A stretch of 64,000 nt of DNA from Vibrio taketomensis. GTDB taxonomy: Bacteria; Pseudomonadota; Gammaproteobacteria; Enterobacterales; Vibrionaceae. The notes below the pieces were generated by a model. That model saw only the letters and a program-made list of their open reading frames with translations, ran no database searches and was not told the DNA's origin. Below, one piece after another: positions 14,454 through 58,503 of the stretch (the first letter of the stretch is position 1; every line of letters begins with the position of its first letter). The stretch lies in the NCBI RefSeq assembly GCF_009938165.1, contig NZ_AP019649.1:1550001-1614000 (forward strand), in the 5' to 3' direction. The position numbers and the translations under genes were made by a program.

Positions 14454-14494
14454 AACTTGATGCATATGATGATAACGCAGCAAGGCTAGTAAAT

Positions 14495-19750: not shown

Positions 19751-19798
19751 GTAGCTGAATTTATTGGTTTATCTAAATGCCACGCAATATGAGTTTTG

Positions 19799-19814: not shown

Positions 19815-19858
19815 AGAACACAGTAACAATATGAATCACACTCAAAATTGAGGTATTT

Positions 19859-30825: not shown

Positions 30826-30865
30826 AATCTAGCTTATTAAATATAACAAAGACTTTATGGAACCA

Positions 30866-33554: not shown

Positions 33555-34835
33555 TTAAGCTTGTTGAGCGTGTAGTGCTTTGGCACTGATGATCCAATTA
33601 CGTACTGCCTGTGGAGACATGATCTTTGGGTTGCCGAGGTCTTTGTCCGTCGCTGCTGCGAGTTCCGGTGGCAATACATCAATAATCAGTTCCAGATCTC
33701 GATGTGAGTCAATCTCACTCACAAACACATCCGCCATTTCTTTACTGTATGATGCATTACGCGCTTTCGCTGCTTTAACCAAGCCATCCAACAATACGTA
33801 CCATGTGGTCATTGGGCCTTGAACGACAGATGCTGACTCAGCGGCTGAATCGATAAAAGCAAACGGCGTCGTTGTTATGGGCTGATTAAGCTCCATGGCG
33901 GCAAAGATCCAATCTGTATCAAACGAAAAGTCATAGACTGTAGGCTTTTCTAGGATTTTCTCTAACACCACGCGGCCATAAAGTTTAAACGCGGCTTGTG
34001 TATCTTTGATCCCCTGATCAAAGATTTGCGCGCCAATCATTCGCTGCATATGGCGTAGAGTCTTTATCCCTACCCCCCAACGCTCTTCTTGCTTAACCAA
34101 TATCGAATCTGGGTGTTTACGGTTACCTAACACCACTTGTTTGTTTTGCTCAATAAATGGTTTTAGAAGTAAACCTATCTGTCCTAAATGCACCGAATTA
34201 TCTGCATCAGTATAAACAACTGCATCAGCGCCATTTCGCAAAGCGGTTTCACAACCTAATACAATCGCGCCCCCTTTGCGTGAGTCATCAACATTTTGTA
34301 GGTCTTTCAGAGGCCCGGTGTGTGTAGGGATTGCGGTCGACAGTTGTAGAATGTGGACGAGGCTACTCTCTTCTGGCGTTTGTAAATTGGCGATGCGCTT
34401 AGCAATATGGGCACTATCATACGGGCAGCCATCATCGACACAAAACAGCTGCCATTTAACCAATGAACCCGCTGTTACCCACTGAAGCTGACGAATCTTT
34501 GTTCTCAAAGAATCTTCACCATTTGGGTTCGATTTGCTTTTCTCTTGTAAACGGTTTTGCTCACCCCACATGGCAAACACAACACCGATGCTCACTGGTG
34601 TTTTAATACTGTTTACATAGCGTTTCGACTCAACCAATTTGAGCGCTAGTTTAAACTCAAGTGGCGCCTCATAAGTGCTACTGAGCTCCTTTAACTGTTC
34701 TATTGGGATGTGTTCAAGCTCAAGCAATTGCTCAGCGAGATATAACAAATGGGTTTGGTGCGTATTACTGGTGAGATCAAAGTCATCACTCGAGTTCTTT
34801 ATTAGGTCAATAACAAGCGAAACAGATGTATCCAT
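33555..34835 (-). CDS. Family 2-type glycosyltransferase, soluble
   Basis: Cytoplasmic GT-A glycosyltransferase of 426 residues, with the core in the middle of the protein: V-D-D-G-C-P near residue 136, a G-G-A-I-V-L-G-C segment and the metal-binding Y-T-D-A-D-N-S near residue 205. An N-terminal helical region of about 85 residues precedes it. The fold is like dolichyl-phosphate-mannose-type GT2 enzymes. It lies 101 bases beyond the GH16 gene on the same strand with no terminator seen between, so it may be the last gene of the second polysaccharide operon. Donor and product are unknown. Confidence 0.7.
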   Translation of the reverse strand: MDTSVSLVIDLIKNSSDDFDLTSNTHQTHLLYLAEQLLELEHIPIEQLKELSSTYEAPLEFKLALKLVESKRYVNSIKTPVSIGVVFAMWGEQNRLQEKSKSNPNGEDSLRTKIRQLQWVTAGSLVKWQLFCVDDGCPYDSAHIAKRIANLQTPEESSLVHILQLSTAIPTHTGPLKDLQNVDDSRKGGAIVLGCETALRNGADAVVYTDADNSVHLGQIGLLLKPFIEQNKQVVLGNRKHPDSILVKQEERWGVGIKTLRHMQRMIGAQIFDQGIKDTQAAFKLYGRVVLEKILEKPTVYDFSFDTDWIFAAMELNQPITTTPFAFIDSAAESASVVQGPMTTWYVLLDGLVKAAKARNASYSKEMADVFVSEIDSHRDLELIIDVLPPELAAATDKDLGNPKIMSPQAVRNWIISAKALHAQQA

Positions 34836-34936: not shown

Positions 34937-35728
34937 TTACTTACAACGACGGTCAGGCGTGAATACGAAATTTCTGTAATGTGCTTGATAACGGTTGCGG
35001 TTATCAACATTGAACAGACCAGCCCAATTGGCAACACCAGGATCAGTTGCCCATACATTCGCCATTACTCGCAATTTTGAGTGAGCAGCGTTAGGAATTG
35101 GATCAAAACGATTATTGCGAACTTTTAATATTGATTTGCCATCAATAAACCATTCCAAAAAATCCTTTCCCCAATATATTCCATAGCGATGAAACTCTTG
35201 AGATGCATCAAAATCTAGGAAAATCAACGTCTCATGAGTGTTGCTATAATCATCATCATCGGTCCAGAAATTGAGTTGAACCATATTGGTATTGGATCCA
35301 AGAAACTCGATATCAATTTCGTTGTGACGTCCACTACCATCGACAGGTTTGTCATGGGGACCAGCAAATAGGAAAAACGAAGAAATAACTCCCGGCGCTT
35401 TAATCGGCTTCATATCGACTTCGTAGCAACCATAGGAATAATAATCATGGCTGCGTAATTCACCAGAAAAGAACGTTCGTTCCCCTTGCTCATTAAGAAC
35501 ACTATCCGGCCCCAGTTCAATGCTCATGCCTTTGCGACCAAATCGCACCGCTTCTGCTTCCCAGCGACTAAAAAACGGGTAACCATTTTCCCAACCATCT
35601 GCTAACTGCCAGACTGATTGATCAAAACTATTTAAATCGTCAGAAAATGCATCTGCGTTGCTAAGCGGCACCGAGAATGGTGAATGAGACAATCCCAGTA
35701 GCATGGCAGCCATTGGTATTTTTTTCAT
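34937..35728 (-). CDS. Secreted GH16 glucanase, lichenase/ExoK-like
   Basis: Exported endo-beta-glucanase of 263 residues. A short signal peptide covers about residues 1-25. The GH16 catalytic motif H-N-E-I-D-I-E-F-L-G is complete, with nucleophile E137, helper D139 and acid/base E141. The flanks S-G-E-L-R-S-H-D, Y-G-C-Y-E-V-D-M-K-P and V-I-S-S-F-F-L-F-A-G-P-H follow Bacillus beta-1,3-1,4-glucanases and rhizobial ExoK closely. In an operon with a cellulose-synthase-like GT2 it should cut or size the product, as ExoK does for succinoglycan. It overlaps the preceding gene by four bases. Confidence 0.87.
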   Translation of the reverse strand: MKKIPMAAMLLGLSHSPFSVPLSNADAFSDDLNSFDQSVWQLADGWENGYPFFSRWEAEAVRFGRKGMSIELGPDSVLNEQGERTFFSGELRSHDYYSYGCYEVDMKPIKAPGVISSFFLFAGPHDKPVDGSGRHNEIDIEFLGSNTNMVQLNFWTDDDDYSNTHETLIFLDFDASQEFHRYGIYWGKDFLEWFIDGKSILKVRNNRFDPIPNAAHSKLRVMANVWATDPGVANWAGLFNVDNRNRYQAHYRNFVFTPDRRCK

Positions 35729-36684
35729 TTATCTTCCTCCACCGCTGGCGCGAAACTTCTTCGCTGAGTTGCTGTTACCCCTTTACCGCTCTGTGCCCCT
35801 AAGTTACCTCGAAACTTAGCTTGTTCATCATCTGAGCCTTCACTTTGCTTTAGTGGTTGGTCACTTTGCTGTGGTGTGATTGGTTGTTGCTTCATATCCT
35901 GCTCAATGATTTCTGGCCTTGATCCCAACGGATGAGCGATAACGGTCGGTTCGGAATTTTTTTGCTTCGGTTGAACGCTTTTTTGATCGAGCATTTCTTT
36001 AATTTTGGGGTTGGATTGTTGAGCAACCTTATTAGGAACAAAGGTTTGTTTGGTTGCAAAGCCTGAATCCAATTTCAATGCATTGTTCGGTGAATATTGC
36101 TTTAATTGGGCACCATCGGCGGCAGTTTGTGCTTGTTCTGATTGAGATGCCTGCAGAGTTTGTGTTGCTAAATTCGAGGACGGCTTTTGGTAACTAAAGT
36201 AAGCAAGCCTTTGCTGCCAAACTTCCACCAGCGAATAAAGCTCTAGCCATTGGTTATCAATATTTACCCCACTATCGCCAACGGGCATATTTACTTGTAG
36301 CCGCGAACTCGATTGTTCATACTCGGTATGCAGATTACGCTGTACTTCCTCCCAACTGCTCCCCGACATCAAGAAGTAGCGCACGCTGTTAGCCCAATAT
36401 TCATAGGCAATAGGGTCATTGTTTTTTTCGGCTGCGATAGCAGCAAGCCCATCAGCAAGACCAGCGACTTGCCACATTTGCTTCGCACCAATTTTTCGCT
36501 CTAACGTCATCGCAAAGCGACTTTGGGCGTGAAAACTATCCGCAGCTTGAGCATAGCGACCCTGTCCTAAAAGTAAGGTTGGGGTAACGAGCAAATCAAT
36601 TGCAGGCTCTTGCAATACGGCCTGAGCTGAACTCAACCCAGATACCCATATAAGGCTAAGTATAAACCATCGAAATCTTCTCAT
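35725..36684 (-). CDS. Secreted TPR-like protein with Q-rich C-terminal half
   Basis: I do not recognise the family. The 319-residue product has a signal peptide ending in A-Q-A near residue 22. Residues 25-175 are helical and look TPR-like (A-D-S-F-H-A-Q-S-R-F; A-Y-E-Y-W-A-N-S-V-R-Y-F). Residues 175-319 are low-complexity, rich in Q, S, P and K, and probably unstructured. It lies between DUF3131 and GH16 genes, overlapping both by four bases, so it belongs to the same machine, perhaps as a periplasmic scaffold for synthase and export. Confidence 0.65.
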   Translation of the reverse strand: MRRFRWFILSLIWVSGLSSAQAVLQEPAIDLLVTPTLLLGQGRYAQAADSFHAQSRFAMTLERKIGAKQMWQVAGLADGLAAIAAEKNNDPIAYEYWANSVRYFLMSGSSWEEVQRNLHTEYEQSSSRLQVNMPVGDSGVNIDNQWLELYSLVEVWQQRLAYFSYQKPSSNLATQTLQASQSEQAQTAADGAQLKQYSPNNALKLDSGFATKQTFVPNKVAQQSNPKIKEMLDQKSVQPKQKNSEPTVIAHPLGSRPEIIEQDMKQQPITPQQSDQPLKQSEGSDDEQAKFRGNLGAQSGKGVTATQRRSFAPAVEEDK

Positions 36685-38063
36685 CGGAATGTCTCCACTA
36701 GACAGTTTCCGGGATGACTAAAACGCGAATCAAACTGTACATCACGATATTCCCAGCTCGTGCCCACTTGATATAACTTCCCTTTTTGCTTGTATAGCAG
36801 CGCCTCAAGCACGCCCGCATTGGTCTTTAGACTGATGCTTTTTTCATATTCACTCGTAAGTTCAAAACGCCCTTCATACCATCCACGCTGAGGATCATAT
36901 AACTCTTTTACTAACGTCATTAATCGATCAGTGTAGTCGGTTTTCCATAGCACCCACATTTGAAACGCTACTCGAGTTGACACCAAAGCTAATTGGTCGT
37001 GAGAAGAACCATCTTCTGCAAGTGTTATCCAAGGCGTGCCGAGACCATAAATAGCGTCATAAACGAAATAAGGCTCGCCTGATACAACATGCTCTCCGCG
37101 CGCAGTGTAAATGCGTTCTTTTTCCCAACGTAGCTCTTGCACCTGATAAACGGCATCAGCCATTGCCGACAATGTCTCATTGGTATGAGTGGAATCACTC
37201 GAGCTATTATCGCTAATGTCATCCCAATTAAACTCTAACCCCATCCATAGATACGGTGTTGAATATACCGGGCGTAACACATTGAAAATTCGAGGATCTC
37301 GTCCATCAAAGATGATGTCTACGCCATAGAGTGTCGCTACATCATAAGGTTCGATATTAAATGCTTTTTCAGGGACGATATGCCAATCGAGATAACCGTA
37401 AGAGGTATATTCTTCGATACCTAAACGCCCTTCTTTGTAGGGGTGAACTTGCCCTTGATGTACCGCCGCACCGTAAAGCTCTCCGTCCTCACTGACCAAT
37501 TTACAGAAATTCCAGCGCAGTACCGCCTTGTCGATGTACTCTGTAAATTCTGGTGAATGACGTTTTACAATCGAAAGCACAATCAATAATCGGCCAACAT
37601 CAAGTGATGACCAACCAATATCTTGCGGCTGATTGCCATAGTTGACCATCTGACCGTGCTGAGTGCTGTACACTTTGTTTGGAACTTGCCCTTGGCTTAA
37701 AGGCATTTTGTTTAAGAATGACAACACGAGTGACAAACGTTCATCGTATTCTTTGTTAGTAATAAACTCGAACTCTCGAGCGGCCAATAAAGCGAGCAGA
37801 TAATCCGCCAAACCTGACATGTTGGTTGTTGGGTAATTGTCTAAATTATTCACCAGTCCGGTTGAGAGCTGCGTATTGTTGCTAACATATTTCCACGCCG
37901 TCGCAGCCCACGCTAACTCCTCTTCGGTTAACGGGCCATGACGTCCTTGCCGCAACATCTGCGATTGGTTGAGAGCATCAATCCCATTATTGACGCCTTG
38001 GTAAACAACACCGCACGCAGACAAAATAAAGACAGACGCTAAAACAACGACACTTTTTAGCAT
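36681..38063 (-). CDS. DUF3131 lipoprotein, third of three in the operon
   Basis: Lipoprotein of 460 residues, signal peptide with lipobox L-S-A-C at residue 17. The rest is a DUF3131 domain, an (alpha/alpha) barrel found with glycan enzymes. Shared marks with its neighbours are T-G-L-V-N-N-L-D-N-Y-P, P-L-S-Q-G-Q-V-P-N-K-V-Y-S-T and S-L-D-V-G-R-L-L-I. Each copy in this window has the W-x-x-x-D-x-G-R-L/I block. A hydrolase or lyase role on a glucan is inferred from the fold family only. Confidence 0.78.
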   Translation of the reverse strand: MLKSVVVLASVFILSACGVVYQGVNNGIDALNQSQMLRQGRHGPLTEEELAWAATAWKYVSNNTQLSTGLVNNLDNYPTTNMSGLADYLLALLAAREFEFITNKEYDERLSLVLSFLNKMPLSQGQVPNKVYSTQHGQMVNYGNQPQDIGWSSLDVGRLLIVLSIVKRHSPEFTEYIDKAVLRWNFCKLVSEDGELYGAAVHQGQVHPYKEGRLGIEEYTSYGYLDWHIVPEKAFNIEPYDVATLYGVDIIFDGRDPRIFNVLRPVYSTPYLWMGLEFNWDDISDNSSSDSTHTNETLSAMADAVYQVQELRWEKERIYTARGEHVVSGEPYFVYDAIYGLGTPWITLAEDGSSHDQLALVSTRVAFQMWVLWKTDYTDRLMTLVKELYDPQRGWYEGRFELTSEYEKSISLKTNAGVLEALLYKQKGKLYQVGTSWEYRDVQFDSRFSHPGNCLVETFR

Positions 38064-38074
38064 TCAGAGCCTCT

Positions 38075-39475
38075 CTACTCTACTGGTTCAATTTTCTTAC
38101 GAGGTAGACATTGTCCTTCATAGCCAAACGGTGATTCGAGCGCCTTTTCCCATAAGCTAGGAGGCGTATCTTCTTTATAAGTCAGCAACTTACCTTTTGT
38201 TTTATACAGTAGAATTTCTAACGTGATGCCATTGTTGTTCGAGGTAAAAGTATTAATAAGGCCGGTACCATTTTCAAAAATACCTTCGTAGAAGCCTTTT
38301 TCGCGATCGTAAGCAGTTGAAACATGATCAAACAGTAAATCGGTATATTCTGTATCCCAAAGAACCCACATACCCATCGCGCCTTTGATCGCGACTGCTG
38401 AAAACTGCGGTAAAAATTCACCCACTTCTGAAATTGTGTTCCATGCGAACCCATCGGTGTAGATGGTGTCATACACAAAGTATGGCGCACCCGCTAACTG
38501 GTGTTCGGTTCGAGCAGTAATAATACCGGTTTGTTTATATCGCTCTTCTTGCACTCGATAGATCTGCAGTGCAAACTCCGCCATCCATTCATGACTGTAC
38601 TTGTTATCATGAGGGCTTCTATCCGAGACAACATCCCACCCCATTTCTATACCATCAAGCACATAACTTTCAGTTACAACGTAACTATGCGCTTTCAGTT
38701 TACGCGGGTCACGGGTGTCATAAGGGATGTCATAGCCAAACAAATTAATCGTGGAATATGGCTCGGGCATGAGCGCCTGAGTCACATCAAAGCCCCACAA
38801 TTCGAAACCTTTTGCTGCATATTCTTCATAGCCTAAGCGACCTTCTTGAAGATATTGAACTTCTTTGCCTGGCTCGAGCAAGGCGCCAAACATGGTGCCG
38901 TTCTCATCAACAACATTACAGAAGTTCCAGCGAAGCACCACCTGGTCAATACTGGTCGCGAACTCTGGGTAGCGGTGCTTAATAATATGGAACCAAATCA
39001 GTAGTCGGCCGAGATCCAGCGCGGAATAACCAATCTCTCCCGGTTGGTTACCATAGTCTACTTTCGCTGCCGTCTGAGTATTGTAGGCTTTGTTAGGTAA
39101 CTCACCCTTAAATAGATCCAACTGGTTCAATGTTGCCAAAAATCGCGTTAGTCGCTTATCCATCTCCTCTTTTTCGATGATTCCAAGCTCATACGCACTG
39201 ACCATGCCCGCTAAATAAGATGCCGCATCCCACCAAGTTACCGATGGATAATTGTTTACCGCATTTACCAGCCCTGTTGATTCCTGATAGTTATTCTCGA
39301 AATACGTCCATGCAATTCGAGCCATATCCATTTCTTTTTCTGTCAATTCACCCGAGCGAGGCTTAGGAATTGTCCAGTGAGATTTTCGGTCGATAATCTC
39401 ATCTGAAAATTGGTTATATTTGTTACCACACCCAACCAAAGCCAGTGTGATCAAACTTAAACAAATACCGCGCAT
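38075..39475 (-). CDS. DUF3131 lipoprotein, second of three in the operon
   Basis: Lipoprotein of 466 residues with lipobox L-V-G-C at residue 16. The DUF3131 domain shows T-G-L-V-N-A-V-N-N-Y-P-S, P-N-K-A-Y-N-T-Q-T and S-A-L-D-L-G-R-L-L-I-W. It is closer to the third copy in length and anchoring than to the membrane-anchored first copy. Eleven bases separate it from the next gene. The outer-membrane-facing lipoprotein form suggests work on the nascent polysaccharide in the periplasm. Confidence 0.78.
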   Translation of the reverse strand: MRGICLSLITLALVGCGNKYNQFSDEIIDRKSHWTIPKPRSGELTEKEMDMARIAWTYFENNYQESTGLVNAVNNYPSVTWWDAASYLAGMVSAYELGIIEKEEMDKRLTRFLATLNQLDLFKGELPNKAYNTQTAAKVDYGNQPGEIGYSALDLGRLLIWFHIIKHRYPEFATSIDQVVLRWNFCNVVDENGTMFGALLEPGKEVQYLQEGRLGYEEYAAKGFELWGFDVTQALMPEPYSTINLFGYDIPYDTRDPRKLKAHSYVVTESYVLDGIEMGWDVVSDRSPHDNKYSHEWMAEFALQIYRVQEERYKQTGIITARTEHQLAGAPYFVYDTIYTDGFAWNTISEVGEFLPQFSAVAIKGAMGMWVLWDTEYTDLLFDHVSTAYDREKGFYEGIFENGTGLINTFTSNNNGITLEILLYKTKGKLLTYKEDTPPSLWEKALESPFGYEGQCLPRKKIEPVE

Positions 39476-39485
39476 ATAACCTTCC

Positions 39486-40813
39486 TTAGTTATTGTTATT
39501 CTTTTCGCCTATGGTCAGTAGTGGTCCGTTTTCGATGTAAGCTAGGGATTCCAATACGATACCATTGGTATTAGCCGTAATAGCCTTGTTCGTTCTGCCG
39601 TCTGATTCATAACGACCTGAATACCAACCTTTTTTGGTTGAATGTAAATCGCGCGCTTCTTCAATTAAAAGTTCGGTATATTCCTCGTCGTACAACGCGT
39701 ACCAACCAAATGCTGCTTTGGTTGATAGGGTTTTTAAGTGAGATTGATCTTTGCCATCGTCAGAGATTGCATTCCATTTTTTTCCATCAGAAAAAACCGT
39801 GTTGTAAACGAAGTAAGGGGCTTCATCGACGTTATCTTCACTCACCGCCGTAACAATACCGGTGTCTTTGTATCGACGTTGCTGAGCCTCATAAACTCGA
39901 TGAGCAAAAATTTTAGATACGCTATCTGCTCCGAATTCAATACCATCTAGGATGTAAGATTCACTCACGACATAGTTGTGCGCATGATACTCTGCTGGAT
40001 CACGTTTATCGGTTGGAATGTCGATACCATAAACATTCACCATCTCAAGAAAATCGATGTACTTCATTGAGTTGAAAACGTCACGCCCCATTAGCGCCAG
40101 CGATTTGGATGCATACTCTTCATAGCCAATACGCCCTTCTTGAACTAACTCCATTTCGCCATTGGAAGCCGGACGAGCACCAAACATATAGCCATCAATT
40201 AGCATTTCCCCAACGCGCCAATGAGTTAGCACATTGTTCACTTGCTGGTTAAACTCTGGATATTGCCAAATCAAAATATTCATTGGCACCAAAATGCGCC
40301 CAATATCAATCGCCGACCAACCGATACCGTTTTGCATGGGATTATTTTCATAATCCACCATTTCAAGTGTTTGGGTGTTGTAGGCTTTATTGGGCAGTTT
40401 TCCGTTAACCAATGGCAATCGAGCCAGTGTCGTCAACGCTTTTTCCATACGCATATCGAACTCATCTTGAGTCACGATATTTAGTTTTTCAGCCGCAATC
40501 AGCCCCATCAAATACGATGCGGTATCCCACATGGTCGTCGATGGATAACCATCCACTGAATTGACCAAGCCTGTATTTTCTTGATAGTTATTTTCAAAAT
40601 ATTGCCATGCGATGTTAGCCCCTCATATTCTTGAGTTGTAAGCACACGACTCTCTTTCAACGGAATAGATTCCGGAGCTTCAAAAGTGATGTTGCCAAGA
40701 ACCAAACCGGTATGACGGCTTTCTATACCAAACGCAATCACCAATGCAGTTGCCAAGCCTAGAATAAATACGACATGGTGACGCGCATTGACTAACGCCT
40801 TCTTAAACTCCAT
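39486..40813 (-). CDS. Membrane-anchored DUF3131 protein, first of three, frame broken once
   Basis: About 442 residues when joined. A single N-terminal membrane anchor at about residues 13-32 replaces the lipobox of the other copies. The DUF3131 domain carries T-G-L-V-N-S-V-D-G-Y-P-S-T-T-M-W-D, P-N-K-A-Y-N-T-Q-T and S-A-I-D-I-G-R-I-L. The frame breaks near 40620 where five G were read as four (E-Y-E-G-A-N-I-A-W-Q-Y-F is recovered with one G added). Its start overlaps the GT2 gene by 11 bases, so synthase and this protein are translationally linked. Confidence 0.78.
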
Positions 40814-42662
40814 ATTTTAACTCCTCTGCATCCGTTTCTTCTTGCTCGCTTTCGTTACTCGGAGGTGGCGTCCAAAATGCTGCCGCCATCATGCCCCACA
40901 TCGCCATCATGTTATTGATAATCCAGAACGTATTTAGTACCAACCCGCCATAAGAATAGTTGCCCCAACTACCTGTCTCATGCCCTATCCAAGCAAAAAT
41001 AAGAGCAAACAAGCTGAGGAAAAACACTAACGATTGTGGGATAACCAACTTAAAGAAGTTGCCGGTTTGCCTCTCTTTAGGTGTGGTTGGAAAGCTGATT
41101 TTTCTTCCGCGCAGTACGGTCCATAACGCCCGCATATTGACTGGGAAAAAGGATAAGAAATTGGTCTTGCCCTTATAACCTGCAACGCCCCAAGTACCGA
41201 CCATCATTGCCAGCTCAGCGGTCAATACATAAGGTAAGAAATGCAAATAGAAGGTAACGTCGTACGCACTTACTGGCGCTATCGATGTTAAGAAGTAGAT
41301 AATTGGACACGCCAAGAAAATGATGTTCCAAATCGCTGATAGATTTGACCAGAAACTCGCGCCATACATCAGTTTCTGTTTGAGGTTCAGACCTTTACGA
41401 AAAATTGGGTTGTCATTCATAAAAATGTCTATCGAACCACCGGAGTATTTAAAACGTTGCACGGTCCAGGTTTGCAAATCTTGCGGCGATAGCATCTTAC
41501 TTTCGACATTTGGATGCATCACAGAGCGCCAATTTCTTTCTTGATCGGAATGCAGCACAATTGAGGTATACAAGTCTTCTGATACGTGGAACTTATAAGG
41601 GGTAAATTCAGTATCAAACAAAATTTCATTGCGTAAGTTGTCTGAAACGGCTCTATCGACCTGCTTTTCTTTGGTCAAGCGGCGGATTTGGCGCTCAACT
41701 TCGTCTTGCTCTTTGGTGATCTGCTCGGCATAGGCGCGTAATGCCGCTTCCATTACCGCTTCACGGCGGTGAATAGAGCCAGCACCGCAACAAAATGATG
41801 CATTAACCCAGTTTCTGCGACGTTGAATTACGTCGTAGAACATTTGTGGGTCATTAACAAATGGGTCCTCACCAAGTGTTACCGGTCCATAGATTCGCTC
41901 AAAGCCTCTACCTAGTGGCGCAGCCCAACTGCCCAATTTTCGTTTTAGGAAAGCCGGTAAACGTTCGCCTTCAGGAAGGTCAAAGAACCATTGAGGGGTT
42001 TGCACCCACGCTACGTTTGGATCTCGGAAATAGCCAAGAGTGTTTTCTAAAATGCTTGGGAACGGGCGAGTATCAGCATCGCAAATAACCACGAAGTCAC
42101 CATAGGTTTGTTCCATAGCGTTACGTAAGTTACCTGCTTTAAAGCCAATATTACCTTCACGGGTGATATAACCTACCCCCATCTCATCAGCCATGGCTTT
42201 CATTTCTGGGCGATTACCATCATCGAGAATATAGATATTGATATCTATCTCATGCGGGTAACGAATGTTCTTGGCGTCGATGATACTGAGCTTAACCAGA
42301 TCCACTTCTTCGTCATAGCTTGGAAAGAACACATCGACCGCGATTGGCCTGTCTTCATCCGTTTCAGATACGCACTCTGCAAGCTTAAAAGGCGGTGCTT
42401 TCTTCGGTTCATCTTCAACTTTCCATAAGTTGTAGGTAAACAGCATTGAACCGATAAAGGCACAAGATTCAGCAAAGGCTAATGGCAACGAAAACCACAG
42501 AGCATCATAGTTTAGGGCAAATAGCCAACGCCACCATAAATACCATAAGCCTAGCGTCAAGTTACAGGTTGCAAGATATTGGTACAGCAACTCCCTTGGA
42601 ATACTGTGAGGCACCGGCTCTGGGGGAACGCGATGCTCGTATTGCTTAAAATAGTGGTCCAT
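40803..42662 (-). CDS. Cellulose-synthase-like family 2 glycosyltransferase
   Basis: Processive inner-membrane polysaccharide synthase of 619 residues. Two membrane segments (about 32-78) precede the GT-A core and four or five follow. Catalytic marks are D-D-G at 147-149, D-A-D at 195-197, T-P-Q-W-F at 222-226, T-L-G-E-D and S-E-D at 361-363. The QxxRW site reads Q-R-F-K-Y (402-406), a conservative variant. No PilZ domain is present, so c-di-GMP control of the BcsA kind is not expected. The operon lacks bcsB and bcsC; the DUF3131 proteins and GH16 stand in their place. The product is likely a beta-glucan but is not known. Confidence 0.85.
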   Translation of the reverse strand: MDHYFKQYEHRVPPEPVPHSIPRELLYQYLATCNLTLGLWYLWWRWLFALNYDALWFSLPLAFAESCAFIGSMLFTYNLWKVEDEPKKAPPFKLAECVSETDEDRPIAVDVFFPSYDEEVDLVKLSIIDAKNIRYPHEIDINIYILDDGNRPEMKAMADEMGVGYITREGNIGFKAGNLRNAMEQTYGDFVVICDADTRPFPSILENTLGYFRDPNVAWVQTPQWFFDLPEGERLPAFLKRKLGSWAAPLGRGFERIYGPVTLGEDPFVNDPQMFYDVIQRRRNWVNASFCCGAGSIHRREAVMEAALRAYAEQITKEQDEVERQIRRLTKEKQVDRAVSDNLRNEILFDTEFTPYKFHVSEDLYTSIVLHSDQERNWRSVMHPNVESKMLSPQDLQTWTVQRFKYSGGSIDIFMNDNPIFRKGLNLKQKLMYGASFWSNLSAIWNIIFLACPIIYFLTSIAPVSAYDVTFYLHFLPYVLTAELAMMVGTWGVAGYKGKTNFLSFFPVNMRALWTVLRGRKISFPTTPKERQTGNFFKLVIPQSLVFFLSLFALIFAWIGHETGSWGNYSYGGLVLNTFWIINNMMAMWGMMAAAFWTPPPSNESEQEETDAEELKYGV

Positions 42663-42711: not shown

Positions 42712-43179
42712 TCAGTGGTTGTCAGCCAACTCTTTCACCATCACGAAGGTATTTTTGTCGCCTTCTTGTTTCATCTCTACCGAATCCATCAAATTCGATA
42801 CGATGATGAAACCACGGCCTGATGTCGTCCAAGTGCTTTCATCATTCGGATCAGGCTCGATGAACTCATTGCTCAATTTTGTTGCCAGCTCTTGTTGAGA
42901 CATTGCTGAGCCACGATCCGAAATCGACAATTTCAACTGTGGTTGTTCATCCTTAAAGACCTCACACACCAACTCGATGGGTAAGCCTTCTTGTTCCTGA
43001 TAGGCATGTAAAAACGCGTTATTCATGATTTCTACAATGCACAGCTCTACCTGAGACGAAAACTCCTGATCAATGCCAGCCATTGACCAAAAACCGTTGA
43101 GTTCATCGCAAGCCTCTCGTGAGGCGTTCAACGAACTAGGATACGTACCACCAAACCGCTTTATCGCGCTGTTGGTCAT
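42712..43179 (-). CDS. Anti-sigma-type serine kinase (RsbW/HATPase family)
   Basis: Cytoplasmic GHKL ATPase of 155 residues, like RsbW/SpoIIAB partner-switch kinases that phosphorylate STAS proteins. The N box V-E-I-M-N-N-A-F-L-H-A-Y is at 49-60, the G1 box S-D-R-G at 87-90 and the G2 box G-R-G-F at 121-124. It lies between the pyrophosphorylase and the GT2. No sigma factor gene is near, so its target is probably the STAS protein at 44.3-44.7 kb and possibly SypA. Confidence 0.85.
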   Translation of the reverse strand: MTNSAIKRFGGTYPSSLNASREACDELNGFWSMAGIDQEFSSQVELCIVEIMNNAFLHAYQEQEGLPIELVCEVFKDEQPQLKLSISDRGSAMSQQELATKLSNEFIEPDPNDESTWTTSGRGFIIVSNLMDSVEMKQEGDKNTFVMVKELADNH

Positions 43180-43196: not shown

Positions 43197-44318
43197 TTAA
43201 ATAGATTTAATCCCATCGGTCGCACGACTTTTCGGATTAGGACGTAGATCTGTTAATCCATGATAATCACAATGTTCACCATCATGACCAATGCAGTAGC
43301 CACCAAATATCGTTTTCTCAGTGACGGCTGTTTTTTCATGTACATGAATGTTTTCAAAAATGAGTGAGTCTTGAATATAACTACCCGCATCTAACACGCA
43401 GTTGGCACCAATTAATGCTGGCCCTGAGATAGTAGCTGAATCGTCTATTTGGCAGCCGCTACCTATCACAACTGGCGGCTGAATATTACATTTGTCGAGG
43501 TCGACGACGGTATTAATACCTAGCCATACACCTGCACGCACTTGTGTTCCCGGAATTCGATAACCCGGCACTTTGCCTTGCAGAATGTCTCGAGTTACAC
43601 TCCAAATATCATGAATTTGCCCTACGTCGAGCCACTGAAAACTCAGATCAACGGCATAGAAAGGCACATGCTTTTCAACTAACAGAGGGAATAATTCGCT
43701 ACCAATATCAAACTCTTGGTCGGCTGGAATGTAGTCAAAGATCGCCGGTTCGAAAATGTAGATACCAGTGTTAATTTGCGTCGATAACGCTTCTTCTTTT
43801 GACGGCTTCTCTTGGAAACTGGTCACCTGCTTACGATTGTCCGTAACAACAACGCCGTATTTTTCAACATCATCCAAAAGCACGTTCTTGGTAATGATCG
43901 TTGCAATGCCACCTAGCTTTTTGTGCTGTTTAATCGCATCAGTTAAATCCAGGTCGATCCAAGCATCACCACAGACCACGACGAACGTTTCATCAAAAAA
44001 TCCTGAGAACTGTTGGATTTTTTTCATCCCACCAGCAGAACCGAGCGCTTTACCGACGTATTCACCGTTGACGAGTTCACCCTCATAGGAATACGAAAGC
44101 TGCACACCGAAATGATGACCATCACCGAAATAGCCTTCGATCACCTCGGCTAAATGGCTTGTATTCACCATAATTTTAGAAATGTTGTGCTGTGCAAAGA
44201 GCTCAATCATGGATTCCATTACCGGTTTGCCAAGTATTGGAATCATTGGCTTCGGGATTGATTGCGTGATCGGGCGAACGCGCGTTCCTTTACCGGCAGC
44301 TAAGATCATTCCTTTCAT
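43197..44318 (-). CDS. Sugar-1-phosphate nucleotidyltransferase with hexapeptide C-terminus
   Basis: Cytoplasmic NDP-sugar pyrophosphorylase of 373 residues, close to mannose-1-phosphate guanylyltransferases and glucose-1-phosphate transferases. The N-terminal signature is L-A-A-G-K-G-T-R-V-R-P with K-P-M-I-P at 23-27. The middle has V-C-G-D-A-W and F-Q-E-K-P. A left-handed beta-helix tail runs from about residue 260. It would supply the activated sugar for the neighbouring GT2. GDP-mannose versus UDP-/ADP-glucose cannot be told from these motifs. Confidence 0.82.
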   Translation of the reverse strand: MKGMILAAGKGTRVRPITQSIPKPMIPILGKPVMESMIELFAQHNISKIMVNTSHLAEVIEGYFGDGHHFGVQLSYSYEGELVNGEYVGKALGSAGGMKKIQQFSGFFDETFVVVCGDAWIDLDLTDAIKQHKKLGGIATIITKNVLLDDVEKYGVVVTDNRKQVTSFQEKPSKEEALSTQINTGIYIFEPAIFDYIPADQEFDIGSELFPLLVEKHVPFYAVDLSFQWLDVGQIHDIWSVTRDILQGKVPGYRIPGTQVRAGVWLGINTVVDLDKCNIQPPVVIGSGCQIDDSATISGPALIGANCVLDAGSYIQDSLIFENIHVHEKTAVTEKTIFGGYCIGHDGEHCDYHGLTDLRPNPKSRATDGIKSI

Positions 44319-44331: not shown

Positions 44332-44664
44332 TTACGCGGCAGTGGTTAACGCAGTTTCGACGCTGTCATAAGTCTTAATCAAGCGATCCATGCGGGTTAA
44401 TTTAAACAGATCTAGCACTGCTTTTTGTGGGCTAGCGACGCTAATACGCTTGTCTCTAAGCAGTTTGTACACGCCCATTACCGCGCCAAGACCACTGCTA
44501 TCCATAAATTTCACCGCTTCAATATCAAGAACCAGATGTGGAGATAATTCACCTACAACCGCCTCAATTTGCGCTCTAAACTCAGGAGCTAACTTGGCAT
44601 CAAAACGCTCTTCATTTATTCGAAGAACTGTGCTGTCGCCCTTCTGACTAATTTCATATCGCAT
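44332..44664 (-). CDS. STAS-domain anti-sigma-factor antagonist
   Basis: Cytoplasmic RsbV-like protein of 110 residues with the phosphorylation site S57 in F-M-D-S-S-G-L-G. I choose the ATG at 44664, with AAGGAG seven bases upstream; an earlier in-frame codon at 44694 has no such site. The gene overlaps the preceding phosphatase gene by 49 bases. It is a paralogue in type of SypA, and like SypA would act by binding a partner in its dephosphorylated state. Confidence 0.86.
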   Translation of the reverse strand: MRYEISQKGDSTVLRINEERFDAKLAPEFRAQIEAVVGELSPHLVLDIEAVKFMDSSGLGAVMGVYKLLRDKRISVASPQKAVLDLFKLTRMDRLIKTYDSVETALTTAA

Positions 44665-45869
44665 AAGTTTTCTCCTTGCGTTGTTCCTTTCCATTCAGCC
44701 ACCAGAAGGCTTACATCATCGTCAAAATTTTCAGTATTGCGCCAATCTTGAACCGATTTGACTAACATTGAGGTCTGTTGCTGAGTGGGGTATTTGTTGA
44801 GTGTTGCAATGGTTGAACGTAAACCATCTTCAGAAAATTGGTCATCGCCGTTATCTGCTTCAGTAATGCCATCTGAGTAGAACCAAACTCGATCGCCCGC
44901 TTCGAGTTGAATACTGTCTGCCTGATATTCGACACCATCAAAAGCACCTACCACGAAATTGTCATGGCCAACTAATTCAGTCTGGGTTTTATTCTCTCTA
45001 TGCCAAACCAAAGGTGGATGCCCAGCGCAACAGTAAGAAAGTAACCCTGTTTTAATATTGAGCACCGCATAAATCATGGTGAAATAAAGGGCATTAGTCG
45101 ATGCACTCGCATAGATTTGGTTTAGTCGATCAATAACCCCTTCCGGTGGGACAACTTGTGGCCCTTCATCAGTATGACGAAGGACTATCGATGCTTCACC
45201 GCTTAATAAAGAGAGACTTTGCTGCACTGAAAAAGACATTAACGCTGAAGAGACGCCATGCCCTGCCACATCAATTAAATAAAAGGCAACGTGGTCATTA
45301 TCGAGCTGCATATAGCCCAACATGTCACCACCAATTTGCGCGCTTGGAATCGAAATATAACTAAGTTCTAAGAATGGGAAGTGCTTTTGCTTTGGTAAGA
45401 TTTGCTGAATTAAATCGCCCGCCGATTCTAAATCTCTTTTAATGGTCTCATAAGCCGCATCAAGCTCAATGTTTTTTTGCACGACTTCGTTGTGCAGTGC
45501 GAGGGTTCTAAACCCTGCATGGATGCGCGCTTCTAACTCTTCCACTGATGTTTTTTTGTCAACAAAATCATCTGCACCGGCATCTATACCAGTGACGATC
45601 GAATCTTGATCATTTTTCGAGGAAAGTAAGACAAAAAAGATGTAGCGGCCAAACTCTCGCGCTTTTAACGTCTGGCATAATTCGATACCACTCATACCAG
45701 GCATTAACCAATCAGAAAGTACGAACTGTATGGAATCGCGCTCAGACAACACCTGTAGCGCTTCCTCGCCACTCAGTGCCGTGTAAACTTTGAATCCCTT
45801 CGACTTAAGCACCGAACTCATGAACACGAGTATGGTACGACTGTCGTCTACCAGAAGTATTTCCTTCAT
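44616..45869 (-). CDS. Response regulator with PP2C (SpoIIE/RsbU) phosphatase output
   Basis: Cytoplasmic protein of 417 residues: receiver domain at 1-120 with phosphorylation site D53 in L-S-D-W-L-M-P-G, a linker helix, and a SpoIIE-type serine phosphatase at about 185-400 with Q-I-G-G-D-M-L-G and L-I-D-V-A-G-H-G. Phosphorylation of the receiver would switch dephosphorylation of the STAS protein. It is the first gene of the long minus-strand operon. Vibrio fischeri SypE joins kinase, receiver and PP2C in one protein; here they are two proteins. Confidence 0.88.
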   Translation of the reverse strand: MKEILLVDDSRTILVFMSSVLKSKGFKVYTALSGEEALQVLSERDSIQFVLSDWLMPGMSGIELCQTLKAREFGRYIFFVLLSSKNDQDSIVTGIDAGADDFVDKKTSVEELEARIHAGFRTLALHNEVVQKNIELDAAYETIKRDLESAGDLIQQILPKQKHFPFLELSYISIPSAQIGGDMLGYMQLDNDHVAFYLIDVAGHGVSSALMSFSVQQSLSLLSGEASIVLRHTDEGPQVVPPEGVIDRLNQIYASASTNALYFTMIYAVLNIKTGLLSYCCAGHPPLVWHRENKTQTELVGHDNFVVGAFDGVEYQADSIQLEAGDRVWFYSDGITEADNGDDQFSEDGLRSTIATLNKYPTQQQTSMLVKSVQDWRNTENFDDDVSLLVAEWKGTTQGENLCDMKLVRRATAQFFE

Positions 45870-46101: not shown

Positions 46102-47099
46102 TTGGGAAAGACGCAGTACTGGCCAAGCCTTCCACTAACACTCTGTTTCTGGGTGGGTTTTGTCTTTGCCGATGAATACCACGCCAATACCAGTCCACAT
46201 GCCATAAAGCCATCTCAACATGTACTGACAACGTCTACTCTCTACCCTACTGCCCCAGATAGCAGTTTTGATGATGAACTCGATGAGATTTGGAAAGGCG
46301 TGAGTAGTTCGTTTGATTTTCCCTATCAAGAATGGGAAAACAGAACGTTTTTGGATGGTCTAAGTGGCAATATCGGTTACCACCACCCTTTAGCAGAAAC
46401 CGAATCTGCCAATTTGCCCGCCGGAGCAACGAGCGGTCCTAGCAATACCAATATGACCTCTACCTTATCGCTGAAATACACCATCGCGGGTGCTTGGTTT
46501 ATTTCAGGAACCGTGTACTACTATTGGGATCAAGACCAACAACAAGCATGGAACCCTGATTTCACCTACGTTTTTGGCTATAGCGATTGGCGCCCTTACA
46601 CTTTTAGCTTGGTGTATTCCAATTATGGGGAACCGTTTTAATCCCGGCCCTGGTGAAAAGTAACAAATTTCAATCAGGGTACATGGGCGCTCGGGTGGAA
46701 ATTTCTATTACCAATCCCGTCAAAGATTGGCTCACATTTACGCCCGAAGGCGCCATTGGCTGCCAAGTCGATTACAACTATACGCCCGAGTATTTTGACC
46801 TCGCCTCGATTTCGTATAAGACCTCACACCAAACTATCAGCTTAGGCTGCAAATATTCCATATTTGGGAATTGGTACGTGAACGGCACTGCATTTTACTA
46901 TTTTGACAAATCACAGCAGCAGCCCTGGAACCCTGATTTTACCTATGGTTTTGGCTATTTTGATTGGCGCCCTGGCACCATTACTTTGCAATATAATAAT
47001 TATTCTGGGAATCGCTGGCGCTCATCAGAACGAGGAAAAGACACTGGTCGCTTCAAAGATGGTGCAATTACCATCGCATATAGCTTCGTTTTAGTTTGA
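46102..47099 (+). CDS. Secreted beta-rich protein with an internal duplication, reading frame broken
   Basis: I do not recognise a named family. A plausible signal peptide ends in V-F-A near residue 23. Two copies of a segment are visible: W-F-I-S-G-T-V-Y-Y-Y-W-D...Q-A-W-N-P-D-F-T-Y-V-F-G-Y...D-W-R-P and W-Y-V-N-G-T-A-F-Y-Y-F-D...Q-P-W-N-P-D-F-T-Y-G-F-G-Y...D-W-R-P, with alternating aromatic residues as in outer-membrane beta strands. The frame changes about three times between 46632 and 46725. The joined reading gives N-R-F-N-P-G-P-G-E-K, V-T-N-F-N-Q-G-T-W-A-L-G-W-K-F and T-N-P-V-K-D-W-L. It lies just before the RTX gene on the same strand. Confidence 0.6.
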
Positions 47100-47207: not shown

Positions 47208-47234
47208 TTAATCTAATTGGCTAGGAGAAGGCTC

Positions 47235-50200
47235 ATGGAAGGAACAAAGCACGACGATATCATTACGGGGACTGGCGAAGATGATGCGGTAAACAGCCGC
47301 TCGGGTAACGACGATATCTCAACGTTGGGCGGCGATGACTTTGTCGCTGCAGGCGAAGGTAGCGATAACGTAAACGCTGGTGACGGTGCAGATACCGTGC
47401 TGGGTGATGTCGAATATGAACTGTCTGAAAGTGAAACTGCGCAAGAAAATAAAGATGATTCTTGGGGAGTGGCGGCGACTGTATATGAATACAACGCCTC
47501 TGAAGGCGAGAAATCTAGTCACTCTCTAAAACTCGATAACTTTGTCGTCAATCAAGCGGTTCAAACTTCAACTAGTGCTGGTGGATTCACTAGCGGTGAA
47601 GAAGTCACGATTGAAATCACTGATGAAAAAGGCAATGTGATTGCAACCGAACTCGCGACAGTAGACGAAAACGGTGCAATTAGCGTTAACATTGATATTC
47701 CAGAAAAAGACCTACCCGGTGATGGTAGCGTCATTCTCACCTTCTACGATCAAGAACAGAATCCTATTAGCAAAATTGAAGATATGGACGTGCAAGTTCG
47801 CAATATCTTCAACGACACCATCGATGGCGGCGCTGGCGATGACATTTTAAAAGGCCAGCAAGGTAACGACACAATTTTTGGAGGTGAAGGCAACGATTTC
47901 CTCGATGGCGACATCAATGACGATACCCTTTATGGTGGCGAAGGTGATGACGTTATTATCGGCGGCTCTGGCGATGATGCCTTATACGGCGATGAAGGCC
48001 ATGATGTGCTGCTCGGTTCGGACGGCAATGACAAGCTTTATGGTGGGCTTGGCGATGACCTACTGATGGGTGAACTGGGTGATGATTACATTGAAGGTGG
48101 CGAAGGTCACGACACATTAATCGGTGACGATGGCACCGACACTCTGATTGGTGGTGATGGCCACGACAAACTGTTTGGTGGTAAAGGCCAAGACCTGCTC
48201 CAAGGCGATGCAGGCAATGATGAGTTACACGGCGAAGATGGTGACGACCGTATCATCGGTGGAGAAGGCAACGACTTCGTCCTTGGTGGTACCGGTGACG
48301 ATACCATCAGTGGCGATGCTGGCGAAGATTTGCTGCTCGGCGGCGATGGCGATGATGTTGTAACCGGTGGCGATGGCCACGACGTCCTCGTTGGCGAACT
48401 GGGTGATGACCAACTTGATGGCGGCGAAGGCCATGACATCCTGTATGGTGATGTCGGTGACGATACGCTAACAGGTGGTTTAGGTAACGACCAATTGTAT
48501 GGTGGTGAGGGTAACGACACCATCGATGGTGGCGAAGGTAACGATATTATTCACGCCAACGAAGGCATTGATATTATTACCGCCGGTGCTGGTGATGACC
48601 AAGTATTTGCGGGCAGTGGCGACGACATTATTACTACTGGCGAAGGAGCCGATACGGTTTATGGTGAAACGGGTCATAACACTATCGACTCTGGTCGTGG
48701 TGATGATACTGTCTACACCGATGCCGGAGATGACCAAATCACCACCGGCGAAGGTCACGATACCATCTTTGCTGGTGATGGCGCTAACACACTCCGCACT
48801 GGCGAAGGTGATGATTTAATGTACACAGGCTCCGGTGCAGACCAAATCACGACGGAGTCTGGAAACGACACCATTTTTGCCGGCGACGGTGATAACGTGA
48901 TCGACTCTGGCGCTGATCATGACACCGTTTATGCAGGCAGTGGCGACGACACCGTAACGTTAGGCACTGGTCATGATAAAGCCTACACAGGCGACGGTTC
49001 AGATGTAATCTATGCCGGTGAAGGCAATGACCAAGTATTTGCTGGCGGTGGAAACGACCAACTGTTTGGCGAACAAGGTAACAATCAATTATTTGGTGAA
49101 GGCGGCGATGACCAACTCACCGCTGGCCTCAACGCGAGCGAGCTTTACGGCGGTTCCGGTCAAGATACACTTATCGGTTCTGAAGAGAGCGATAAGCTCT
49201 ATGGCGGCGCTGACAACGACACTATTACCGCCAATGCTGGTGACGATATCATCGAAGGTAACGACGGCGATGATCAAATATCCGCAGGTATTGGTCACGA
49301 TACAGTTTTTGGTGGTCAAGGCGATGACTACATTACTGGTGAAGAAGGCAACGACACCCTAATCGGCGACACCGGAGATGACACCATTTTAGGTGGCGAA
49401 GGTGACGATATTCTGGTCGGTGGTAAAGGTGCCGACATGCTCGATGGCGGCACAGGACGCAGCGAAATCTACGGTGAAGACGGCGATGACACGCTAATCA
49501 GTGCTGATCAAGATGACCTACTCTCTGGCGGTGCTGGCGATGATGTGATCACCTCCGGTTTAGGTGACGACACCATATTTGCAGGCGCTGGTACCGACAA
49601 AGTCGACTCAGGAGCCGGTAATGACACTGTCTATGGCGAGTCAGGCATCAACACCATTGAGACTGGTCTCGGTGACGATATCGTATACGGCGGTGTTGAC
49701 ACAGATACTATTTCAAGCGGCGAAGGCGTCGACCAAGTATTTGCTGGCGATGGTGCTGATACCATTGATGCGGGTGAAGGCGACGATCATATTGATGCGG
49801 GTGATGGCGATGACCTAGTCATGGGTGGCGCTGGTAACGATGCTCTATTTGGCGGCGCAGGCAACGATGAAATTATCGGTGGTGAGGGCTACGACTTTAT
49901 TGCTGGTGGTGCGGGTAACGACACTATCCGTGACGACGGTCAAGACACTATTCTCGGAGAACAAGGCAACGATACCCTCTACGCCGCAGAAACGGGTAGC
50001 CATAACATCTTTGGTGGTGAGGGTAATGATACCCTAATCGGCAGCGATGTCGCTGATACTCTCTATGGTGGAGAAGATGCCGATACGATTACCGGCGGCG
50101 GTGGCGATGACGTTCTGTTTGCCGGAGACGGTGCCGACAAAGTAGACGCAGGCATCGGTGACGATACTGTCTATGGAGAAGCTGGCGATAACACCATCAC

Positions 50201-52097: not shown

Positions 52098-52123
52098 CTG
52101 TTAGCAAAAATAGAAATAATACT

Positions 52124-52147
52124 AAAGCCCACTACTGTGGGCTTTTT
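52124..52147 (+). terminator. Rho-independent terminator of the RTX gene
   Basis: AAAGCCCAC-TACT-GTGGGCTTT is a perfect 9-base stem followed by a T run, 27 bases after the stop codon. Confidence 0.9.
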
Positions 52148-52192
52148 GTATTTCGAAACGAGTTAACGCCTATTCAAGTATCTCTTAGAGGT

Positions 52193-52710: not shown

Positions 52711-52879
52711 TTTGCTATTCTTCCTTGGAACAATCAATGATCAAAAATTATTGATGAAGATATAACATGAGACAAACCGCTCTCAATACACTTTTAGTTC
52801 AGATTTATTATCGACACATACAAATAAGGCTGGTTATTACCACCAGCCTTGAGAAATAAGTCTATTTAAACTGACCCCG

Positions 52880-54438: not shown

Positions 54439-54449
54439 ATAACGCCTCC

Positions 54450-56140: not shown

Positions 56141-56265
56141 TCTCAAGCCAACTTTGTTGCATATAATTATATAGTTGAGTATAGACAGTGATTTGAACAT
56201 GTACCTAAATGGAACGTGTAAAACCTATTTACTGATATAAATTACCTTCACACGCTCTGATATGG

Positions 56266-57070: not shown

Positions 57071-58503
57071 ATGGACCGCCCTCACCGCCTTTTTATGATG
57101 ATCTTTGCTTGCATAGGCATCGCTGGCTATGTGAGTGCAAATGCGGATGAAAGTCATCCAGAGCAACCTGAAGCCGTGAGTTTTATGGACAGCGTGGAAT
57201 TTCAACCCCGCAAAACAAACCCAAAACCGAAACACAATATTATCGCCGTGCGATTGCGCCTGCTATTCCGAGAGAGTCCGAAGTCACGCCCACTAATTCG
57301 ATTATTGACGCGTTCACAAAAGCTGAATTTATATATCCATTAACTCGCAACGAATTGCTGTTGGCAAAAAAAGCGCAATTCTATTTTGAACGTAATTACC
57401 GTGAACGCACTGGGTTTTGGGATTCGGTACAGGGTTACCCGCATACCACGATGTGGGATATTGCCAGTGGCATTGCGGCCACACTCGCCCTAGAGGGGCT
57501 TGAGCTAACAGAACGCGAAGAGACTAAGCGCAATTTAGCCCGCACGCTGAAAAGCTTAAACGCGTTACCTTTGTATAGGAATACCCTGCCCAATAGAGAG
57601 TACAGCACCAAGACAGCGCTGCCCTCCGGCCGTTTAAGTGACACGATAACCAATGGCAATGGCTGGTCAGCACTCGATATTGGCCGCTTGCTTATCTGGC
57701 TGAAAATTCTCACCCAGCAACATCCCGAATTTATACCTGACGTTGAGCAACTCACGAATAAATGGCAATTGGATAAAGCGGTTCATAACGGCACGCTATA
57801 TGGAACTAATTACTACAAAGGAAAAGAGTATTACCGTCAGGAAGGTCGCAATGGCTATCTACAATATGCCTCTCGCGGATTTGAAATGTTTGACTATCGG
57901 TTACCTCATCCGAATTTAGAACAATACCTATTGAATGTAGAAATTTCAGGTACCTCAATATCGACTGATACGAGAAACGTTCCGTTTCTTACCAGTGATC
58001 CTTATGTCCTCGCTAGTATTGAGTTTGGACGCGATGACGCGTGGAATCAGGTCGATAACTTTTATGACTTACATCGCTCTCATTCCGAGAAAAATGGCAA
58101 ACTCTATAGTTATGCAGAAGATGCGATGAATAAAAACCCTTGGTTTGCGTACAACAATCTCTATTATTACGGCAAGCCTTGGACGAGCGTTAGTCCAAGT
58201 GGAAAGACCATCGAAAATCCACAAATTTTTAGTCACAAAGTCGCCTTTGGATATAGTGTTCTATTTGATGATTCTTTCAGCCAACAGCTGTTCGATGCCG
58301 TTTTAGATAACAGCCTTCACTCCCGTAGCATTCCTACCGGCCAATATGAGAATGGCGGAATGAACACGGCATTTAATATCAATACCAACTCATTGATTTT
58401 GGTTGCGTTGTGGTACAAGCAAAATGGTCAAAAGCCTATTTACCAGCCTAAAATCCCAACAAGTAGTCATCCTGTCGTCACTAACCTTGATATAGAGCCT
58501 TGA
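57071..58503 (+). CDS. Fourth DUF3131 protein, secreted, frame broken once
   Basis: About 477 residues when joined. A signal peptide ends in S-A-N-A near residue 25. The DUF3131 domain is clear: R-T-G-F-W-D-S-V-Q-G-Y-P-H-T-T-M-W-D, L-P-N-R-E-Y-S-T-K-T and S-A-L-D-I-G-R-L-L-I. The frame breaks near 57213 where five A were read as four (P-R-K-N-K-P-K-T-E-T-Q-Y-Y is recovered). Unlike the three operon copies it is on the plus strand, 16 kb away, with a simple signal peptide. Confidence 0.78.

Follow-up and report, generated by a model that had tools for sequence, protein, structure and literature searches.

A conserved GT2 and DUF3131 gene set in Vibrio taketomensis, probably an exopolysaccharide system under partner-switch control

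The gene run and its extent

The 64,000-nucleotide stretch of Vibrio taketomensis analyzed here (GCF_009938165.1, contig NZ_AP019649.1; hereafter the window) carries a minus-strand gene run built around a processive glycosyltransferase of family GT2 and three proteins with the domain DUF3131, which together probably form an uncharacterized synthase-dependent exopolysaccharide system. An earlier reading made from the sequence alone had described the GT2, the three DUF3131 proteins, a secreted Q-rich protein and a GH16 enzyme, between 42662 and 34937, as a possible undescribed beta-glucan locus. All of these genes lie there on the minus strand, but the unit is larger than proposed: the same-strand run begins at 45869, not 42662, and reaches the GH16 gene at 34937. 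With the GT2 alignment as query, 370 relatives were found in a species-level genome collection; locus counts given below refer to the best 80 of these, with up to 10 kilobases read per side. Flanks were full in 60 of the 80 loci and short in 20, so that counts of absence are upper bounds. Calls of signal peptides, lipoboxes and membrane anchors were made by reading the sequences. In minus-strand order the genes are:

44616..45869, minus strand: response regulator fused to a PP2C/SpoIIE phosphatase, 417 amino acids (PF00072, 3e-22; PF07228, 4.7e-40; 71/80 loci)
44332..44694, minus strand: STAS-only protein resembling a partner-switch antagonist, 120 amino acids (PF01740, 1.5e-16; 75/80 loci)
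43197..44318, minus strand: sugar-1-phosphate nucleotidyltransferase, 373 amino acids (436.7 bits to PDB entry 8x7s over 352 amino acids)
42712..43179, minus strand: RsbW-like HATPase_c_2 protein, 155 amino acids (PF13581, 4.1e-22)
40803..42662, minus strand: processive GT2 synthase, 619 amino acids (Pfam GT2 domains; BcsA-like by PDB sequence search)
39486..40813, minus strand: DUF3131 protein a, in two pieces (40508-40813 and 39486-40568), the domain-bearing piece matching at E 2.1e-137, with a membrane anchor
38075..39475, minus strand: DUF3131 protein b (Pfam, 6e-127), with a lipoprotein-like N terminus and a GH189-like (alpha/alpha)6 barrel
36681..38063, minus strand: DUF3131 protein c (Pfam, 2e-104), with a lipoprotein-like N terminus
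35725..36684, minus strand: Q-rich protein with a signal-peptide-like N terminus; relative in 39/80 loci, no Pfam or NCBIfam match
34937..35728, minus strand: lichenase-like GH16 enzyme, an accessory (PF00722, 2.8e-30; EIDIEFL motif), with a signal-peptide-like N terminus

From the nucleotidyltransferase gene down to GH16, neighbors overlap by 4-11 bases or sit no more than 50 bases apart, and the STAS open reading frame, as listed with its longest start, overlaps that of the phosphatase by 79 bases; judged by this spacing, the run would suit a single transcript. Scans for regulatory signals returned 14 promoter matches against 29.0 expected and nine terminators against 12.3, both below chance. 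A search with the sigma-54 pattern gave 43 matches against 41 expected, none of them at the operon with fewer than two mismatches. Three genes in the window change frame, near 40619 (DUF3131 a), 46630 (a beta-barrel gene described below) and 55026 (an ABC transporter); in every case a run of four G on the coding strand lies at the change or next to it. Uninterrupted relatives are known for the first two, that of DUF3131 a lying at L005:11850-13175, and an assembly error seems more likely than decay of all three genes.

The synthase, its constant partner and the regulators

The synthase retains the DDG, DAD, KAG and QTPQ motifs and the ED pair (SED), together with a gating-loop-like motif, FPTTPK. 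No PilZ domain is among its Pfam matches, in agreement with the sequence-only reading, and the absence of bcsB, also part of that reading, holds for the whole genome (PF03170, no matches; control positive in 2 of 14, including E. coli). All six PDB matches of the protein are BcsA-type cellulose synthases, some of its relatives are named cellulose synthase in their source records, and E. coli BcsA used as a query found this GT2 as the sole match in the genome. Identity is 29% to BcsA over 461 aligned columns and 26% over 468 columns to an unannotated GT2 on pSymB which, from its place, we take to be BgsA. In a tree that took in 18 of the 80 loci, with one sequence per type for comparison, BcsA shares a group (100/100) with the pSymB GT2 and a Rhizobium "curdlan synthase", and the present GT2 family falls outside it; because the outgroup branches are long, only this separation is claimed.

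The family also differs at a signature motif, which reads QRFKY here, QRIRW in BcsA and QRERW in the pSymB GT2. QxxKY is kept in 199 of 200 relatives (120 of 2217 proteins plus the 80 loci, near-duplicates included), and the remaining row has HSFKY. The QxxRW motif is reported to be fully conserved among bacterial beta-glucan synthases, with its tryptophan stacking on the acceptor glucose (PMC6821405), and QxxKY challenges the view of this tryptophan as invariant in processive beta-glucan synthases. OpgH- or PgaC-type synthases, which gave only short weak alignments, were rejected as assignments, as were BcsA-like "orphans" of pseudomonads, which are GH17-GT2 fusions (PMC10237404). Five records in a phage collection hold distant cellulose-synthase-like matches.

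A DUF3131 gene occurs in all 80 loci, so the arrangement with GT2 is not due to chance. In 78 loci one lies downstream on the same strand, and in 72 of these its open reading frame begins no more than 60 bases from where the GT2 ends. The proteins have the (alpha/alpha)6 fold of the GH189/GH144/GH162 clan, and this constant partner points by its fold to the beta-1,2-glucan enzymes GH189 and GH144. A DUF3131 alignment of 217 rows (copies above 170 bits and of 360-620 amino acids) was compared with GH189 by hhalign in local mode, using nine GH189 rows in a first set and 13 of 16 extracted frames in the final one; the other three had no SEAR string, by which the frames were cut. The acid/base and nucleophile carboxylates of GH189 align, with low per-column confidence, to E277 (217/217 rows) and to E or D324 (216/217). 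With a fold, candidate catalytic residues and a partner synthase assigned to DUF3131, these loci become directly testable. In a survey of 398 Pseudomonadota genomes, both searches being taken as covering the same set, GT2 was found in 15 (threshold 1e-60), DUF3131 in 20 (below 1e-20) and both in 14. Four of the genomes with DUF3131 only (L136-L139) have the domain in larger open frames of 826-1028 amino acids, and a further 16 genomes gave weak DUF3131 matches alone, almost all of which lie in frames about 2,850 amino acids long.

The PP2C-receiver protein, STAS protein and RsbW-like ATPase make up, by gene content, the usual partner-switch set. Counting either the RsbW-like HATPase_c_2 protein or a second HATPase_c_2 variant, the trio is present in 70/80 loci and in 59 of the 60 with full flanks. 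H-NOX genes adjoin 14/80 loci (L046, L053, L056, L058, L060-L062, L064, L065, L067, L071, L072, L080 and L084), mainly in filamentous Thiothrix-like sulfur bacteria, and histidine kinase genes adjoin 20/80, suggesting a possible nitric-oxide or oxygen input in those loci.

Within the genus the GT2 was found in 21/196 genomes, V. taketomensis included. Relatives extend through Vibrionaceae, among them Aliivibrio fischeri, to marine Shewanella, filamentous sulfur bacteria and a Pantoea plasmid. A single contig of Shewanella abyssi carries two copies of the system (L034 and L036), oppositely oriented and about 25 kilobases from each other. The copy on Pantoea stewartii pDSJ10 (L095) is accompanied by a globin, a response regulator and GH2, with an IS66 element adjoining the phosphatase gene. 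The GT2 of a record titled Mycobacterium sp. KBS0706 (L077) groups with two Rhodobacterales sequences (96/92), so the name of that record may be wrong.

Donor sugar, hydrolases and neighboring genes

The closest solved relative of the nucleotidyltransferase, 8x7s, is deposited as a UTP--glucose-1-phosphate uridylyltransferase and the next PDB match scores 112 bits; this closeness would favor UDP-glucose as the donor. Relatives above 400 bits are found in 51/80 loci. It may be that 8x7s is CugP. No paper on 8X7S was found in the open-licence literature. CugP is described as a UDP-glucose pyrophosphorylase of a non-GalU kind (PMC7133116).

The affinity of the GH16 enzyme to beta-1,3-1,4-glucanases stood up: its best solved relatives are Bacillus-type lichenases, and the ExDxE motif (EIDIEFL) was read in the window protein and in 10/10 strong relatives. 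Its score against the BglS lichenase equivalog NF047856 is 194.6, below the cut-off of 300. The use of GH16 as a guide to polymer linkage was not supported. The enzyme occurs in 10/80 loci, all Vibrio, and was rejected as a mark of the system, whereas the same core occurs with GH2 in 36/80 and with GH9 in 24/80. GH9 and GH2 stand together in 22 of the 24 GH9 loci, loci with GH16 have neither, and all three families were unseen in 32/80. Vibrio rhodolitus (L041), whose GT2 is 92% identical, has no GH16 in the stretch read. The GH16 count leaves out two weak matches, in L048 (28 bits) and L074 (34 bits), from which the catalytic motif is missing. With GH16 in few loci and GH2 or GH9 elsewhere, the enzyme is a swappable accessory and says little about linkage. 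Judged from one representative each, GH9 is nearest to endoglucanases and GH2, among solved proteins, to beta-mannosidases, with an exo-glucosaminidase also among its matches. The hydrolase set indicates a chain with beta links and mainly gluco configuration but does not single out one linkage. The nucleotidyltransferase, with its UDP-glucose-type nearest relative, and the endoglucanase-like GH9 of some loci leave the earlier proposal of a glucan product plausible.

Around the run lie further genes whose relatives recur in part of the loci:

33555..34835, minus strand: second GT2-family protein, 101 bases beyond GH16 (PF00535, 3.2e-6; relative in 40/80 loci; no PDB relative at 0.001)
46102..47099, plus strand: predicted outer-membrane beta-barrel, candidate exporter, in two open reading frames with the frame change near 46630
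47217..52097, plus strand: RTX-repeat protein, likely matrix or adhesin, loosely linked (PF00353, 55 nonapeptide-repeat stretches; RTX in 24/80 loci)
57355..58503, plus strand: fourth DUF3131 protein (PF11329, 2.7e-91)

The second GT2-family gene is linked in Vibrionaceae, Shewanella and Ferrimonas. On the other side of the run, after a gap of about 230 bases, come the barrel-like and RTX-repeat genes, then type I secretion genes and the fourth DUF3131; the count of three made earlier is right for the run itself but misses this neighbor, whose relatives adjoin the barrel and second GT2-family genes in Shewanella loci. An intact relative of the barrel (L005:5574-6566), taken as its representative, models as a beta-barrel with a pLDDT (predicted local distance difference test score) of 74.4. 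Its fold comes nearest to the porins NanC, Tsx and KdgM, and Foldseek ranks FapF first. Relatives of the barrel occur in 52/80 loci, and linkage makes the barrel a candidate exporter.

HlyD and ABC-transporter genes lie near the RTX protein (47217-56200). A separate second polysaccharide locus occupies 8575-23146 and its flanks; in the part of its open reading frames that was scanned it encodes an SLBB export protein, Hpt, a sigma-54 activator, glycosyltransferases and a flippase-like protein, and one perfect sigma-54 pattern match stands at 14438, just before the gene at 14495. A NanE-like epimerase and an amidohydrolase that weakly matches NagA-type enzymes (4337-7037) suggest amino-sugar catabolism. 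At 28047-33289, reading of the sequence gave an M16 zinc peptidase-like frame (HLVEH motif) followed downstream by a TonB-dependent receptor-like one.

Nature of the polymer and relation to known systems

The system is real, conserved and, as far as the open-licence literature shows, functionally unstudied, and its informative features are the GT2 motif, DUF3131 and the partner switch rather than GH16. With moderate confidence we read it as a synthase-dependent exopolysaccharide system, probably for a beta-glucan, under partner-switch control. A beta-glucan is the most likely polymer; its linkage may be mixed or one of several others. Gene set, gene linkage, fold, conserved carboxylates and motif change come directly out of the computation. 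Donor sugar, polymer linkage, enzyme activities, export route and direction of regulation we infer as follows. The nucleotidyltransferase would make UDP-glucose, which the GT2, by analogy with its homolog BcsA, would polymerize while extruding the chain across the inner membrane. The DUF3131 proteins, as membrane-tethered periplasmic enzymes of GH189/GH144 fold, may cut or transglycosylate the nascent chain, which may then exit through the neighboring beta-barrel. The trimming enzyme would be exchangeable, GH16 here and GH2 or GH9 elsewhere, and on/off control would fall to the response regulator-PP2C, STAS and RsbW-like kinase proteins in place of cyclic di-GMP and PilZ.

Several observations weigh against this reading. 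The nucleotidyltransferase was not seen in 26/80 loci, its assignment to UDP-glucose depends on the depositor's name for 8x7s, its best NCBIfam match is a mannose-1-phosphate guanylyltransferase below cut-off, and the matches next after 8x7s, with scores near 100 bits, include GDP-mannose enzymes; the GH2 representative being closest to beta-mannosidases, mannose is a further candidate. Column confidence in hhalign is low around the two glutamates of DUF3131, and the histidine pair of GH189 is asparagine there. The barrel is weakly modelled and exceeds 150 bits in only 42/80 loci, and in two Aliivibrio loci (L019 and L020) the regulators are in opposite orientation. Among the 398 genomes, one (G289) has GT2 without a DUF3131 match and six have strong DUF3131 without GT2.

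A mixed-linkage (1,3;1,4)-beta-glucan with the GH16 enzyme as its own lichenase, as first proposed, now seems unlikely. The gene sits inside the run, lichenases are the best PDB matches of its product and EIDIEFL is present in all 10 strong copies, but the same synthase was found without GH16 in 70/80 loci (20/80 having short flanks), the BglS score falls short, and the GT2, 29% and 26% identical to BcsA and BgsA, lies outside the group that includes BgsA. An ordinary cellulose operon after loss of bcsB and PilZ would account for the six BcsA-type PDB matches, the cellulose synthase names and the alpha/alpha barrel common to BcsZ and DUF3131. It is very unlikely: the GT2 falls in a separate tree group with QxxKY in 199/200, BcsB was not found in the genome, and the constant partner and the regulator are different.

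Two other products would be improbable yet have some evidence. GT2, DUF3131 and OpgC could act like a cyclic glucan synthase whose domains are divided among separate proteins and make a beta-1,2-containing, cyclic or periplasmic (OPG-like) glucan; OpgC is found in 8/80 loci and in Klebsiella block 3b (PMC12974863), and a salt-shock module of Shewanella WP3 is made up of four genes labelled DUF3131 (PMC8371737). This would fit poorly with a GT2 that is BcsA-like, not OpgH-like, with GH16 and GH9 relatives from families best known for 1,3-1,4- and 1,4-glucans, and with the export suggested by the barrel and RTX neighbors. Only a small chance is also given to a heteropolymer, for example glucomannan or a glucosamine-glucose chain as in the filamentous sheaths of Thiothrix. 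The GH2 representative, with its beta-mannosidase and exo-glucosaminidase matches, agrees with such a chain, and loci occur in filamentous Thiothrix, Leucothrix and Crenothrix. The latter two form sheaths as well. Thiothrix is reported to have a mucous sheath (PMC8570282). Against a heteropolymer, the nucleotidyltransferase resembles a UDP-glucose enzyme, and the frequent neighbors that were scanned include no conserved gene of amino-sugar or GDP-mannose type.

Beyond the synthase-dependent beta-glucan reading, a broader claim can be made tentatively, at somewhat less than even chances. The loci may represent a widespread class of machine distinct from the cellulose, curdlan, mixed-linkage glucan, poly-N-acetylglucosamine (PNAG) and cyclic-glucan systems. 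In it, tyrosine would replace the acceptor-stacking tryptophan of QxxRW, DUF3131 would found a new GH189-related family of glycosidases or transglycosylases that shape the chain, in which beta-1,2 or branched links may occur, partner switching would act instead of cyclic di-GMP, and GH16, GH2 and GH9 would be interchangeable trimming enzymes.

No functional study of the gene set, its polymer or DUF3131 was found in the open-licence literature, and neither "DUF" nor "Vibrio" appears in the main text of a paper on new beta-1,2-glucanase families (PMC12102758). Four DUF3131-labelled genes among swp_2164-2170 make up the Shewanella piezotolerans WP3 module (PMC8371737), one DUF3131 gene is listed in Brucella (PMC6382750), and Klebsiella pneumoniae accessory block 3b comprises a cellulose synthase, three DUF3131 proteins, OpgC, a hybrid kinase, an anti-sigma factor and its antagonist (PMC12974863). 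The passages of these papers that mention DUF3131 give no function. "Undescribed" is therefore apt in that no named system or functional study was found, but the gene set had already been listed as block 3b. PMC12974863 counts that block, which has a high loading, among the loci with the strongest association to the main axis of variation in K. pneumoniae. With this published list, the relatives span Vibrionaceae, Shewanella, sulfur bacteria, a Pantoea plasmid and the Klebsiella block.

As in the Bcs cellulose system, the GT2 is processive and carries D,D,(S)ED, KAG, QTPQ and gating-loop-like motifs, and its partner is a periplasmic (alpha/alpha)6 hydrolase, BcsZ there and, putatively, DUF3131 here. 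The present system differs in having QxxKY, no PilZ and no BcsB, DUF3131 for GH8, and partner-switch genes for PilZ. The BgsA partner is an HlyD-like protein; one is annotated beside the Rhizobium "curdlan synthase" gene. BgsBA of Sinorhizobium meliloti likewise has a PilZ-less GT2 and makes an exported beta-glucan (PMC5567048), but the pSymB GT2 that we take to be BgsA has QRERW and groups with BcsA and the Rhizobium enzyme. RiGT2 of Romboutsia ilealis, also a GT2 and reported to make (1,3;1,4)-beta-glucan, has both QXXRW and PilZ (PMC10374906), neither of which is present here. DUF3131 has the fold of the GH189-domain polypeptide and, by the low-confidence alignment, may have both catalytic carboxylate positions, but GH189 is part of one chain of about 2,850 amino acids and has a histidine pair where DUF3131 has asparagine, whereas here separate proteins accompany a BcsA-like GT2. 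The syp cluster is another kind of polysaccharide locus. In Vibrio fischeri its SypE and SypA provide STAS-protein control of a Vibrio polysaccharide (PMC4517449), whereas the present run encodes phosphatase, STAS protein and kinase in three genes alongside the synthase. Similar in content are Klebsiella block 3b and Pantoea pDSJ10, which share the cellulose synthase, three DUF3131 proteins, an anti-sigma factor or RsbW-like ATPase and an antagonist or phosphatase; GH16 is present here, OpgC in the published Klebsiella block (PMC12974863), and GH2, a globin and a nearby IS66 in Pantoea.

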